Shown: piece after piece, positions 3,776 to 62,295 of the stretch
Numbering within the stretch: position 1 is the first letter of the stretch
Layout of the letters: every line of letters begins with the position of its first letter
DNA from: Desulfovibrio sp.
Lineage (GTDB): Bacteria; Desulfobacterota; Desulfovibrionia; Desulfovibrionales; Desulfovibrionaceae
Assembly: GCA_031279825.1 (NCBI GenBank)
Contig: JAITHT010000046.1
Location: 1-64,000 of the forward strand
Direction: 5' to 3'
DNA: 64,000 bases
Translations under genes and position numbers: made by a program
Notes under the pieces: generated by a model
The model's database searches: none
What the model was told of the DNA's origin: nothing
Seen by the model: only the letters and a program-made list of their open reading frames with translations

Positions 3776-4120
3776 GTGAAGACGCCGACACAACCCGCTT
3801 CCGGCCATTCCGCTTTGTCTCGCATCGGAGTCATCCGGGGCTCAATACGCATCTGGGTATACCGCTTGTCCAAAGGACATGAAAAACGCATGGCTATTGA
3901 ACGAAATACGTCAGCGGACATGCTGTGCGCTTTGTTATGCATATCCCGTACCAGATATGTTGACTCCTTGGGGATGCCCGTAGCGCCCGGAGCAATTTCA
4001 AAATTAAAGCGCTCTTGCGGCGATTGCTTCGCACGCCGCGTGCCCATGAGGCACAGGCGAAATCCATTTTTTCAGACAGTATGGAACGGATCGTTTCAAA
4101 GTTACGATACGCCGGAATAA
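3776..4120 (+). CDS. Uncharacterised 114-aa ORF
   Basis: GTG start 6 nt after a strong SD (GGGAGGAG, 3762-3769); no recognised domain. Confidence 0.3.
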   Translation: MKTPTQPASGHSALSRIGVIRGSIRIWVYRLSKGHEKRMAIERNTSADMLCALLCISRTRYVDSLGMPVAPGAISKLKRSCGDCFARRVPMRHRRNPFFQTVWNGSFQSYDTPE

Positions 4121-4688: not shown

Positions 4689-4726
4689 AGAGCCTTTTTC
4701 CCTTGACGCGCCGCGTCATCTACATC

Positions 4727-4884
4727 TAGTGTTTACTCGCAAAAATAAACACTATAAAATACTGGAGGGTTTTGCGCTGACGAAGGCGGCGTAAATCGGC
4801 TGAAAATCATGTTTTTAAGCCGACACTCCTGCAGAAATATCCGTAAAAAATATACTTAGAATTTTTGCAATTAAATAGACACTA
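4727..4884. repeat. Dispersed repeat family 2, copy a (upstream of mutT)
   Basis: TAGTGTTTACTCGCAAAAATAAACACTATAAAATACTGGAGGGTTTT...GAAATATCCGTAAAAAATATACTTAGAATTTTTGCAATTA; matches 45208-45361. Confidence 0.85.
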
Positions 4885-10650: not shown

Positions 10651-10694
10651 TTGAAATAAACGAAACCGCAATGCGCTGTTTTATTCAATAAAGA

Positions 10695-10855
10695 TAAAGC
10701 GCCCCGCCGGGCTTAATAGGGAATCTCGTGTAAAGCGAGAGCGGACCCGCCGCCGTGTACCGGGCATAACCTTCTTTTCCTGACGCGCCACTGGGAATCC
10801 CCCGGGAAGGCCGGAAAAGAAGCCGGACAGCCGGAAGACCTGCTTTATCATTTCG
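10695..10855 (+). ncRNA. Cobalamin (B12) riboswitch
   Basis: GGGAATCTCGTGTAAAGCGAGAGCGGACCCGCCGCCGTGTA...GCCACTGGGAATCCCCCGGGAAGG...GAAGCCGGACAGCCGGAAGACCTGCT, with canonical B12-box-like end; upstream of cobalamin genes. Confidence 0.9.
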
Positions 10856-10918
10856 TCTGTGAGGACGGACCGCGGCAACGGGGCTTTTGCCGTGTGGTCT
10901 TTTCGGGGATGAATCCGT

Positions 10919-11028: not shown

Positions 11029-11988
11029 ATGATGTACTCTTCCTCCCTTTGCCGTCACCGCGCCGCCGCTTGCGGGCGCGGGACCGTGGAGATCGGCCCG
11101 GGGACGCCCGCGCGGGCGCCGTTCGTCCGCATCGCGGCGATCCTGACCTTCCTTTTGTCCGTATGTTGCGGCGCGGCCTTTGCGGAGCACCCCTCAGGCA
11201 AGGATGCCGTGCTTATCGTCGCCTTCGGCACCAGCGTGGAGAAGGCGAGAATTTCTTACACCAATGTGGAAGAGCGTGTCAAAAAGGCTTTCCCGGACAG
11301 CGTGCTGCGTTGGGCATGGAGCGCCCGCTCGCTCCTTAAAAAAGGCCCGAAGGACAACCCCGCTCTCTCCGTGCAAGAATCCCTGGCAAAGCTCGCCGCT
11401 GAAGGCGTGGAAAATGTCTCCGTGCTCTCGTTGCACGTCATTCCCGGTTCGGAATACGCCGATTTGCTCCAAAACGCCCGCGCCTTTGAAGGTCTGCCAA
11501 AGGGACTGCGCCATGTACGCGTCGCTCCGCCGCTCCTCTCCGATACGGAGAGTCTGCGCGCCGTGGCGCGCCTTCTTCTGGAAACGGTACCGGCGGAACG
11601 TGGAAAAGACGAGGGAGTGCTGTTTGTCGGGCACGGCACCCATCATCCTTCGGGAGTGTACTATCCCGCCTTGCAGTATTATTTGCAGGCCATGGACGGC
11701 AACGCCTTTGTCGGGACGGTCGAAGGAGATCTCGATGTTGCAAGCGTCTTGCGGAGTATGAAGGGCAAGGGCCTGCGCAAGGTGTGGATGGCTCCGCTCA
11801 TGACGGTGGCCGGAGATCATGCCGACAATGACCTGTTCGGCCCCGAGGCCGACAGTTGGAAGCAGCGTTTTACAGCGGACGGCATCCAGGTGAGGAGCAT
11901 AGCCAAAGGCCTCGGCGAGTATCCTGCTTTTGTCGCCAGATGGATTGCCGGCCTGGAAAAAACGGCCGGACGGGAGTCGTCCCGATAG
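11029..11988 (+). CDS. cbiK: Sirohydrochlorin cobaltochelatase CbiK, predicted secreted/periplasmic form
   Basis: DAVLIVAFGTSVEKARISYTNVEERVKKAFPD...GVLFVGHGTHHPSG...APLMTVAGDHADNDLFG; N-terminal hydrophobic signal ending AFA-EH. Confidence 0.9.
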   Translation: MMYSSSLCRHRAAACGRGTVEIGPGTPARAPFVRIAAILTFLLSVCCGAAFAEHPSGKDAVLIVAFGTSVEKARISYTNVEERVKKAFPDSVLRWAWSARSLLKKGPKDNPALSVQESLAKLAAEGVENVSVLSLHVIPGSEYADLLQNARAFEGLPKGLRHVRVAPPLLSDTESLRAVARLLLETVPAERGKDEGVLFVGHGTHHPSGVYYPALQYYLQAMDGNAFVGTVEGDLDVASVLRSMKGKGLRKVWMAPLMTVAGDHADNDLFGPEADSWKQRFTADGIQVRSIAKGLGEYPAFVARWIAGLEKTAGRESSR

Positions 11989-12005
11989 CGCGAGTCGGGA
12001 TCCGT

Positions 12006-12076
12006 ATTCCTCGTGCTCTGGCAACCGGTGTTCGCGTTGTCGGTTGACGGAGCATTTTCAAAGTGAAAATGCTCCG
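12006..12076. repeat. Dispersed repeat family 1, copy E (reverse orientation, truncated)
   Basis: CCTCGTG...GGCAACCGGTGTTCGCGTTGTCGGTTGACGGAGCATTTTCAAAGTGAAAATGCTCC. Confidence 0.75.
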
Positions 12077-19205: not shown

Positions 19206-20267
19206 ATGAAAGGTTTCGCTATGCTTGGTATCGGCAAGACAGGTTGGATAACCAAAGACAAGCCGGCTTGCGGTCCTCTGGATGCCGTGGTGCGTCCCAT
19301 CGCCATCGCGCCTTGTACCTCTGACGTGCATACGGTGTGGGAAGGGGCCATCGGCGAGCGCAGCAATTTGATTCTCGGACACGAAGGCGTTGCGGAGGTG
19401 GTGGAAACTGGCTCCATGGTCAAGGATTTCAAAAAGGGAGACAGAGTTATCATCCCGGCTATCACTCCGGACTGGAGCGCCGTGGAATCTCAGGAGGGGT
19501 ATTCCACCCACTCCGGCGGGCTGTTGAACGGCTGGAAATTTTCCAATTCCAAAGACGGAGTGTTCGGCGAATTCTTTCACGTCAACGACGCGGACGGCAA
19601 TCTGGCTATCCTGCCCAAGGGCCTTGATCCGTGCTCGGCGACCATGCTCAGCGACATGGTGCCTACCGGCGTTCATGGGGCGGAACTGGCCGATGTGCAG
19701 TTTGGAGATGACGTGGCCGTCATAGGCATCGGTCCGGTGGGGCTGATGGCGGTTGCCGCCGCGGTTCTGCGCGGCGCGGCGCGCGTATTCGCCGTGGGTT
19801 CCCGCGCCGTATGCGTTGATGTGGCCAAAAAATACGGCGCTACGGATATCGTCAATTATCGCGACGGCGGCATTGTTGAGCAAATCATGGAAATGACTGG
19901 AAAAAAAGGCGTTGACAGGGTCATTATCGCCGGCGGCGACGTCAACACCATGATTGAAGCCATCACCATACTCAAGCCGGGCGGCCGCGTCGGCAACGTC
20001 AATTACCTGGGTGCCGGGGATCATGTGCTGATTCCTCGCCTTGAATGGGGCTGCGGCATGAGCCACAAGCAGATCCATTGCGGTCTCATGCCCGGCGGCC
20101 GCCGCCGCATGGAAAAGCTGGCCGCTCTGCTTGTCACCAAGCGTCTTGACCCCTCCCTCATGCTCACGCACCGTTTCCATGGTTTGGAAGCGGTGGAGCC
20201 CGCCCTGATGCTGATGAAAGACAAACCCAGAGATCTCATCAAGCCGGTGGTGCTGGTGGACAAGTAG
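19206..20267 (+). CDS. NADP-dependent secondary-alcohol (isopropanol) dehydrogenase-like, Zn-dependent
   Basis: MKGFAMLGIGKTGWI...PCTSDVHTVWEGAIGERSNLILGHEGVAEVVE; residues C37, H59 and D150, plus GSR(198-200) and Y218, as in Thermoanaerobacter/Clostridium enzymes. Confidence 0.88.
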   Translation: MKGFAMLGIGKTGWITKDKPACGPLDAVVRPIAIAPCTSDVHTVWEGAIGERSNLILGHEGVAEVVETGSMVKDFKKGDRVIIPAITPDWSAVESQEGYSTHSGGLLNGWKFSNSKDGVFGEFFHVNDADGNLAILPKGLDPCSATMLSDMVPTGVHGAELADVQFGDDVAVIGIGPVGLMAVAAAVLRGAARVFAVGSRAVCVDVAKKYGATDIVNYRDGGIVEQIMEMTGKKGVDRVIIAGGDVNTMIEAITILKPGGRVGNVNYLGAGDHVLIPRLEWGCGMSHKQIHCGLMPGGRRRMEKLAALLVTKRLDPSLMLTHRFHGLEAVEPALMLMKDKPRDLIKPVVLVDK

Positions 20268-20290: not shown

Positions 20291-20420
20291 TAGAGCATTT
20301 TCACTTTGAAAATGCTCTGGCAACCGGCAGCGTAAGCGCCGGACCTCGTGCACGAGGAGTAGGCGAAACGTATTTTCGCCGAGGGCGACGAGTGCAACGT
20401 TTCAAAGGTAATCTGCTCTA
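20291..20420 (+). repeat. Dispersed repeat family 1, copy A (full length)
   Basis: TAGAGCATTTTCACTTTGAAAATGCTCTGGCAACCGGCAGCGTAAGCGCCGGACCTCGTGCACGAGG...GTTTCAAAGGTAATCTGCTCTA; terminal inverted repeats. Confidence 0.9.
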
Positions 20421-20461: not shown

Positions 20462-21676
20462 CTACATCAAAGCGCAGATTCTTTCAGCGAAACGGGAGCA
20501 GGAAACCTCGCGCGCGCCGTGCATCTGCCGGGCAAGATCGTAGGTGACGTCTCCCGCGGCCACGGCTTTGGCCAGACCGGCGCGCACCAGTTCGGCCGCT
20601 TCTTTCCATTCCATAAAATCCAGCATCATGGCTCCGGAAAGAATGAGCGAACCGGGATTAACCTTGTCCAGCCCCGCGTATTTGGGCGCGGTGCCGTGCG
20701 TTGCTTCAAACACGGCGTAGTCGTCCCCGATATTGCCGCCCGGAGCCATACCGAGGCCGCCGACCATGGCCGCCAGGGCGTCGGACATATAATCGCCGTT
20801 GAGGTTGGGCATAGCCAGTACGCTGTATTCGGCGGGGCGGAGTAAAATTTGCTGAAACATGGCATCGGCGATGCGATCCTTAATGACGATTTTGCCGGCG
20901 GGAATAATGCCGCCGTGTTTTGCGGACAGTTCAGCCTCCGTCACCACGCGATCGGCGAATTCTTCGGCCGCGAGTTCATAACCCCAGCGGCAGAATGCCC
21001 CTTCGGTGAACTTCATGATATTGCCCTTGTGCACCATGGTGACGCTCTCTCTGCCGTTGAGCAGCGCGTACTGAATGGCCTTGCGTACGAGGCGCTGTGT
21101 GCCGAATTTGCTGATGGGTTTGATGCCTATGCCCGATCCCTCGCGAATGTCGCGGCCGCTGATTTTTTTCACAAGCTCGGCGATTTGCCGGGATTCCGGC
21201 GTGCCGCTCTCCCATTCCAGACCTACGTAAACATCTTCCGTATTTTCGCGAAAGATAACCATATCCACATCTTCCGGCTTCTTCATGGGACTGGGGACGC
21301 CGGGAATATAGCGCGTCGGACGCACGCAGGAGTATAGATCAAGGGCCAGACGCAGTGCGACGTTGACGCTACGGATACCCTTGCCCACAGGAGTCTGCAG
21401 GGGACCTTTGATCGCCACCCTGTAAGTGCGGATGGCTTCAAGGGTTTTTTCCGGCAGGGATTCTCCTGTGTCAAGAAAGCACTTCTCCCCGGCGGGCAGT
21501 TCAAGCCAGGTGACGGCGCGTTTACCTTGATAGGCTTTACGTACGGCTTCATCAAGGGTCAGGGCGGCGGCTTTCCATATGTCCGGACCGGTGCCGTCGC
21601 CGGGAAGGCAGGGAATGGTCGGTCTGTCCGGCGTGAGCACGGCGCCTGAAGGGCTGATGTGAATGATATCCGTCAT
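20462..21676 (-). CDS. icd: NADP-dependent isocitrate dehydrogenase
   Basis: [25 protein letters not shown]...[20 protein letters not shown]...[62 protein letters not shown]. Confidence 0.95.
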
Positions 21677-22060
21677 GGTCGCTTTCTCCTGTAGCTTGTT
21701 TATCGATATATTTGAACACGCGGCGTGAGGCTCGTGTTTCGCGCGGGCCATACCGCTGTCGCGTAAAGCGCCTGCATGGCGTCGTTATCGGTCAGAAGCT
21801 GATACTGCATATTTATGTCCGGGTAAACCCTTCCTGCTCCCTGCTTTGCCTTACTTTTGCGCCATCCGTCCCGATGCCCCGCGCGGATACTCGAATGTTC
21901 CGCCGGCATCGGTCGTCGCCGGGGCGGCCTTTACGCCATTGCCGCTCCTTTTGAAAATCGACTTTTTTTTACTTTTGGGCTATTCTTTAAAAAGCGTCTG
22001 TAAACCCATAGTTGCGCAATACGCCCGGCGACCCCTGACCGTCGCGTCGCCGGAATATCT

Positions 22061-22189
22061 GCAGCAGAGTAACTGTGAAACGCTGCACCCGTCGTTGACG
22101 GCGAAAACAATGTTTGCCCGCTCTTCGTGCGCGCACGTCAGCGCGTATACTGTCGGTTGACAGAGCATTTTCGCAGTGAAACCGCTCCG
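22061..22189 (-). repeat. Dispersed repeat family 1, copy F (reverse orientation, diverged)
   Basis: GTGAAACGCTGCACCCGTCGTTGACGGCGAAAACAATGTTTGCC...CTGTCGGTTGACAGAGCATTTTCGCAGTGAAACCGCTC aligns to the reverse complement of copy A. Confidence 0.75.
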
Positions 22190-25398: not shown

Positions 25399-25459
25399 TT
25401 AGAGCATTTTCACTTTGAAAATGCTCTGGCAACCGAACTAGAAGTGAAAATGCTCTTAA
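25399..25459. repeat. Dispersed repeat family 1, copy D (short, apparently internally deleted)
   Basis: TTAGAGCATTTTCACTTTGAAAATGCTCTGGCAACCGAACTAGAAGTGAAAATGCTCTTAA; inverted terminal arms retained. Confidence 0.85.
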
Positions 25460-34626: not shown

Positions 34627-34905
34627 AAGTATTGTCCTTGCTGTGAAGCGGAGTGTTGTCTGGTTGCGCGTCAGTGCTGCCGGACGCCAGTTTTCACTCT
34701 CTCGCCAAAGGGCATTACCCTCTTTGTCCGCCCTTGGCAAGTGAGGCCGGAGGCTAGGGCGGCGTGTTAACGCTATGCCTTTTTGCCCTCCGGCTGCGTC
34801 AGATTGTGTCTGCCATCCCGGTCAAATAGCGTTTAAGAGTATATTCCCTCATGGCAGAGGCATCTTCCTTGCCGGAGAACAAAAATTTTATAACGTTAAC
34901 ACGCC

Positions 34906-34937
34906 CTAAAGCATTTTCAAAGCGAAAACACTCTAAC
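34906..34937 (-). repeat. Fragment of dispersed repeat family 1, copy G
   Basis: CCTAAAGCATTTTCAAAGCGAAAACACTCTAA resembles the terminal hairpin of family 1. Confidence 0.55.
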
Positions 34938-45207: not shown

Positions 45208-45361
45208 TAGTGTTTACTTGCAAAAGTAAACACTATAAAACACTGGAGGGTTTTTACCGCAAAATTCGGCGTAAGCATGCTGAAAATATGTTTTTTTTCA
45301 GCAGACGATCCCGCAAAAATATCCGCAAAAAATATACTTGTTATTTTTGCAATTAGACAGT
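45208..45361. repeat. Dispersed repeat family 2, copy b (upstream of the K+ channel gene)
   Basis: TAGTGTTTACTTGCAAAAGTAAACACTATAAAACACTGGAGGGTTTTT...AAATATCCGCAAAAAATATACTTGTTATTTTTGCAATTA; matches 4727-4884. Confidence 0.85.
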
Positions 45362-45383
45362 AGGCATTATGTAAGGAGTTGTC

Positions 45384-61913: not shown

Positions 61914-62043
61914 CAGAGTGCGTTCACTTTGAAAATGCTCTGGCAACCGGCAACGTAAGCGTCGGCTCTCGTGCACGAGGAGTAGGCGAAACGTGTTTTC
62001 GCCGAGGGCGACGAGCGCAACGTTTCAAAGTGAATCTGCTCTA
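61914..62043 (+). repeat. Dispersed repeat family 1, copy B (full length)
   Basis: CAGAGTGCGTTCACTTTGAAAATGCTCTGGCAACCGGCAACGTAAGCGTCGG...GTTTCAAAGTGAATCTGCTCTA. Confidence 0.9.
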
Positions 62044-62178: not shown

Positions 62179-62295
62179 CTGGGGCATTTTCACTTTGAAA
62201 ATGCCCGTCAACCGGCAGCGTAAGCGCCGGTTGCGTGCACGAGGAGTGGGCGAAACGAAACGGCGAGGGCAAGGTTGCAAAGTTGATCTGCTCTA
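62179..62295 (+). repeat. Dispersed repeat family 1, copy C
   Basis: GGGGCATTTTCACTTTGAAAATGCCCGTCAACCGGCAGCGTAAGCGCCGGTTGCGTGCACGAGG...GATCTGCTCTA. Confidence 0.88.

Follow-up and report, generated by a model that had tools for sequence, protein, structure and literature searches.

A 130-bp hairpin-rich repeat of Desulfovibrio is very probably a MITE of the Tc1/mariner-IS630 type

In this paper we looked at a repeat that lies between two genes in a 64,000-nucleotide stretch of Desulfovibrio sp. DNA (the window). We are highly confident that it is a non-autonomous MITE of the Tc1/mariner-IS630 type, as an earlier note made from the sequence alone had proposed. This reading is based on ends that match those of IS630-family elements in relatives, on TA duplication in two pairs of filled and empty sites, on a YTAR signal in the flanks, on a high number of dispersed intergenic copies in both orientations and on the recent multiplication of a sister element in Desulfovibrio sp. 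ZJ369. In the mechanism that we suggest, the element would travel as a passenger, its 130 bp being too short to encode a transposase. An IS630-family (Tc1/mariner group) DDE transposase would move it in trans by recognising its TAGAGCA...CTTTGAAA ends, excising it and pasting it into a YTAR site (CTAG-like), where the TA would be duplicated.

The full-length element (copy A) is flanked by convergent ORFs at 19206-20267 (+) and 20462-21751 (-). Its position, ends and internal palindromes are all present as they were first described (Table 1). As in a MITE, the element is short and bounded by terminal inverted repeats, in which 18 of the 21 end positions pair; in 48 copies taken together, 88.6% of the cells are paired. 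In 7 of 82 full copies the H1 loop reads AAG, the exact inverse of the usual CTT, which suggests that the terminal hairpin can flip, an easier route than three substitutions.

Table 1. Parts of copy A and other copies of the element in the window
Feature	Position	Strand	Remark
Full-length element (copy A), TA...TA	20291..20420	+	130 bp; TAGAGCATTTTCACTTTGAAA ... TTTCAAAGGTAATCTGCTCTA
Left terminal inverted repeat TAGAGCATTTTCACTTTGAAA	20291..20311	+	matches the ends of the IS630-family element L078 at 20 of 21 positions
Right terminal inverted repeat, read inward TAGAGCAGATTACCTTTGAAA	20400..20420	-	family consensus TAGAGCAGATTAACTTTGAAA
Terminal hairpin H1	20291..20319	+	13 pairs, 3-nt loop; overlaps the left repeat
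Hairpin H2	20324..20342	+	GTAA (GNRA-type) loop
Hairpin H3	20343..20359	+	around CTCGTGCACGAG
Hairpin H4	20362..20380	+	GGCGAAA...TTTCGCC
Full copy	61914..62043	+	left ca. 9 bases diverged; BLASTN with copy A
Copy with internal deletion	62180..62295	+	116 bp, both ends kept; BLASTN with copy A
Full, older copy	22060..22189	-	75% identical; BLASTN with copy A
Partial copy (left half)	12005..12075	-	
Fragment, terminal hairpin alone	25401..25435	+	
Degenerate terminal hairpin	about 34910..34937	-	beside the second repeat family
Very diverged candidate copy	3989..4105	+	nhmmer E 8.5e-7

The window holds four copies with both ends, one of them internally deleted, and several fragments. All seven places that had been listed as copies are real, some of them being fragments or degenerate. 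The repeat is not limited to the window; such a limit would have counted against mobility. A covariance model built from 48 copies matched 149 of the 150 candidates scored in the own genome assembly (2.23 Mb, 94 contigs, 83% complete), so that at least 149 dispersed matches exist, a copy number far beyond chance. A rough count puts the element at ~19 kb in all, close to 1% of the assembly. Because several copies sit at the ends of contigs, further ones were probably lost to assembly. Pairwise identity among the copies has a median of 84%, and every full copy differs from all the others, which indicates that the activity in this genome is old.

The claim that the copies are intergenic and lie in both orientations was borne out, as all 82 full copies examined fall outside the genes that our simple home-made procedure called; 44 are between tandem genes, 12 between convergent and 10 between divergent genes, and 16 are near a locus edge. 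By the same gene calls the orientation relative to tandem genes has no bias (25 same, 19 opposite). One possible option is that such sequences are intrinsic terminators, or other fixed gene-end parts, which became alike by convergence, and the location of copy A between convergent genes would suit them. However, the convergent pairs are only 12 of the 66 classified copies, which is no strong excess, the homology extends over the full 130 bp, and the cores are species-specific. We give this option almost no probability, since convergence is refuted by the homology together with the insertion-site evidence.

Insertion of the MITE into a TA site can be followed from the flanks of 82 full copies, all of them distinct. 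A pyrimidine (C or T) precedes the left TA in 68 of them (p 2e-10), a purine (A or G) follows the right TA in 74 (p 8e-15), and positions farther out have little bias. This pattern defines the target as YTAR, which is CTAG-like, and IS630 itself is reported to prefer the TA in CTAG (reference 29 in PMC2170065). The TA preference that had been proposed, which is that of IS630 and Tc1/mariner elements, is thus supported by the flanks, and also by two filled/empty pairs that show a single TA when empty. TA at both ends was found in copy A but does not hold for the whole family, where the outermost dinucleotide is TA in only 41 of the 82 copies on the left and 45 on the right, the remainder being mostly TG, CA or CG. 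These ends are one or two transitions from TA and would be expected of ageing copies; yet the loss of TA at about half of the ends weakens the duplication reading where the own genome is taken alone.

One of the two pairs comes from the own genome, where a copy (L024:2071-2200) is located inside a repeated sequence whose relative in L013 is uninterrupted. The empty version reads CAGACTAGTGTTTAC, with a single TA, and is 85% identical to L024 over 226 bp. This pair is weaker than the one from ZJ369 described below, and both of its flanks are repeats themselves. Empty sites in relatives had also been named as a check, and the genes beside the copies at 20291 and 25399 do have congener orthologues without the element; however, the synteny is too poor for a clean junction at the window copies. 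Two other candidates were rejected: a joined-flank match for L182, which is just the neighbouring repeat, and two paralogous genes that resemble the flanks of the copy in L160 but are too diverged to place the junction.

In ZJ369, a cultured isolate going by its record type, the model matched at least 147 times. Among the 31 copies examined there, 28 belong to a single family of 141 bp, and 13 do not differ from one another at any base. This sister element is identical to the window element in its left 29 bp and its right 19 bp. In L331/L382 a sister copy splits a gene for an IS630 transposase; L261 carries the uninterrupted version, with 95% identity over 526 bp across the junction; the empty L261 has a single TA and the filled L331/L382 has two. 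The L261 contig end, read inward, is TAGAGCAGATTAACTTTAAA, with the GATTAA variant that is typical of the MITE right end, and the right end of this element agrees with the right-repeat family consensus at 19 of 21 positions. Another MITE copy of ZJ369 is inserted in the terminal TA of an L261-type element. Taken as a whole, these data show recent movement, duplication of the TA and a link to the L261 subgroup of IS630.

A transposase ORF between the same 21-bp ends, which had been named as the thing to look for, was found in congeners as well as in ZJ369, with 20/21 and 19/21 agreement. A search with PF13358, the IS630 catalytic domain, gave matches in 12 of 15 genomes of the genus and in 2 of 10 others. 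In the congener G006 (Desulfovibrio sp. MAG Roe453_bin138) an IS630 gene lies between perfect 21-bp repeats, TAGAGCATTTTAACTTTGAAA. This element (L078) is 998 bp end to end, and the two elements that share their ends with the MITE, L078 and L261, are both in relatives. The IS630-family ORFs matched PF13358 (2.7e-32) and, in the catalytic part, NF033545 (1.7e-33, over its cut-off). The L078 transposase consists of two overlapping frames with the overlap at a run of A, an arrangement that would suit a programmed frameshift, which some IS630 elements use. A GTDB genome scan with an alignment of two L078-like transposase proteins gave relatives in Desulfovibrionaceae, Planctomycetota, Verrucomicrobia, Hydrogenedentota and others, and most of the relatives with both ends visible have TAGAGC-type ends about 1 kb apart. 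In the incomplete own genome the search for an L078-type transposase gave no match, its IS630 pieces being broken or of other subgroups. We infer that the mover is or was present in the lineage of the window, and that it probably was of the L078/L261-type subgroup.

Two further observations touch on these elements. In several Desulfovibrio IS630 elements (L078 at 978-998, L271 and L263) the right end can already form a fold of its own, at about -5 to -10 kcal/mol, from which the strong left hairpin of the MITE may have arisen. In the congener G013 a 127-bp MITE with the same end type (L104:188-314) adjoins a broken IS630 transposase fragment.

A different kind of mover can be considered, in which a RAYT (Y1/HUH) transposase spreads REP/BIME-type repeats and uses their hairpins as substrate. 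Hairpins that are short, intergenic and present in many copies would fit such a system, and Y1_Tnp domains do occur in the genus, with two matches in the own genome. Yet TA duplication and a YTAR target are hallmarks of DDE transposases, and the element shares its paired 21-bp inverted ends with IS630 elements. Moreover, Y1_Tnp does not track the copy number: G009 has none and 124 elements, and G007 has ten and 30 elements. We therefore regard a RAYT origin as very improbable and rejected this identity on the TA duplication in the filled/empty pair and on the distribution of Y1_Tnp.

Across the genus, model matches were found in 14 of 15 genomes, and the four congeners G004, G006, G009 and G013 have 78 to 144 each (144, 124, 94 and 78 in descending order). 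The core sequence is particular to each species but is set within common ends and a common hairpin chain. The RNAalifold consensus on alignment A1 was weak and odd, and the named structures were counted instead. In two within-group alignments the stem pairing is kept by two-sided changes above shuffled and slid controls, with 18 double-changed cells against 6.0 when shuffled in A3 and 16 against 4.9 in A4. The earlier note would have taken a lack of covariation beyond shared ancestry as contrary evidence; the compensatory changes seen here exceed both kinds of control. What is conserved in the hairpin chain is its shape, not its sequence.

One question is whether this shape is maintained as RNA or as DNA. 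It could be that the repeat is a dispersed structured RNA (a regulator, an RNase substrate or an attenuator) whose fold is selected, with mobility being secondary. Folding z-scores of -3.9 for the window element and -9.4 for the ZJ369 sister agree with this, as do the cross-species compensatory changes. So does the H2 loop, which is GNRA in 72 of the 82 own copies and in 18 of 20 in a second subfamily while its position 2 takes all four bases; this loop is the sole strand-specific hint. However, both strands fold equally well. The test that separates RNA from DNA palindromes is the count of G-U against A-C intermediates, and G-U is not consistently in excess (H2 43:38, H4 11:25, A3 10:16, A4 14:12), the ratio over all stems in the own genome being 143:100. 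Nor do the copies have an orientation bias to neighbouring genes, and in an Rfam search of the window nothing within the element scored above the gathering score. The single match there was a cobalamin riboswitch (RF00174, 90.7 bits) at 10680-10861 (+), upstream of the ORF 11029-11988. The possible RNA activity raised at the outset is thus not supported by the test for strand preference, the stems and the GNRA loop leaving some room for it; we assign an RNA role a low probability, and a structured RNA with secondary mobility is distinctly unlikely.

It is somewhat less unlikely, but still doubtful, that the chain is selected as a folded strand, with the inner sequence replaced and the series of hairpins, including the GNRA-capped one, kept. 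If so, the element would be a folding cassette that moves about and works once it is transcribed, perhaps as RNase substrate or insulator; alternatively, the folded DNA would aid its own transposition. The likeliest explanation for the upkeep of the hairpins in this MITE is palindrome maintenance at the DNA level or selection acting on those copies which transpose.

Other repeats can also be seen in the window. A second family of ~150 bp with ends GGGCGTGTTAACRCTAT...ATAGCGTTAACATGCCC is found at about 34757-34909 (-) and in L011, L014, L015, L019, L021, L025, L030 and L036. It often abuts the TAGAGC end of the main element, which suggests that one MITE may have inserted into the terminal site of the other. 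A third family, with ends TAGTGTTTACTTGCAAAA...TTTTTGCAATTAGACACTA, lies at 4726-4873 (+) and 45208-45370 (+) and in L013, L018 and L175; the search for its mover gave no result. A fourth repeat surrounds the palindrome GAAATTTGTAAGCAAATTTC at 91-161 and is found also in L013, L024, L157 and L165.

With this family the Desulfovibrionaceae gain a high-copy MITE superfamily with a likely mover identified. The movement of bacterial MITEs is usually inferred from old copies alone, and ZJ369, a cultured host whose genome combines IS630-family transposase genes with numerous identical copies, would allow a direct test. The same ends and hairpin plan around a different core form a natural experiment on what MITEs must keep, and the element accounts for many contig breaks in Desulfovibrionaceae assemblies.

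IS630-derived MITEs are a kind already known, of which this Desulfovibrionaceae family is a well-supported new example; the open-access literature that we searched gave no report of MITEs in Desulfovibrio and no paper naming strain ZJ369. ERIC (127 bp, intergenic, TA termini, high copy number, structured; PMC2229807, PMC10969869) resembles the element in all these respects when architecture and not sequence is compared, but has short 7-bp repeats and, per review, no identified mover. Correia/NEMIS of Neisseria (about 100-200 bp, TA ends, >120 copies, structured transcript; PMC2229807, PMC10969869) is alike in size, ends, copy number and structure, again in architecture and not in sequence, with different 24-bp repeats, other motifs and RNase III processing proposed in Neisseria. 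ISY100 and IS630 share the TA duplication and the DDE transposase, and IS630 the CTAG preference (PMC2170065); unlike the Desulfovibrio element, both encode their transposase. The closest precedent is RUP of Streptococcus pneumoniae, a 107-bp MITE with 108 intergenic copies, a TA target, insertions in transposase genes and a proposed mover, IS630-Spn1, with matching ends (PMC2229807, PMC3049150). The likeness extends to all these points of architecture, which was compared instead of sequence. The host is unrelated, and the two ends of RUP pair with each other (PMC3049150), whereas the Desulfovibrio element has TAGAGCA... ends, a body that is a chain of local hairpins, and a core that is replaced from species to species under constant ends.
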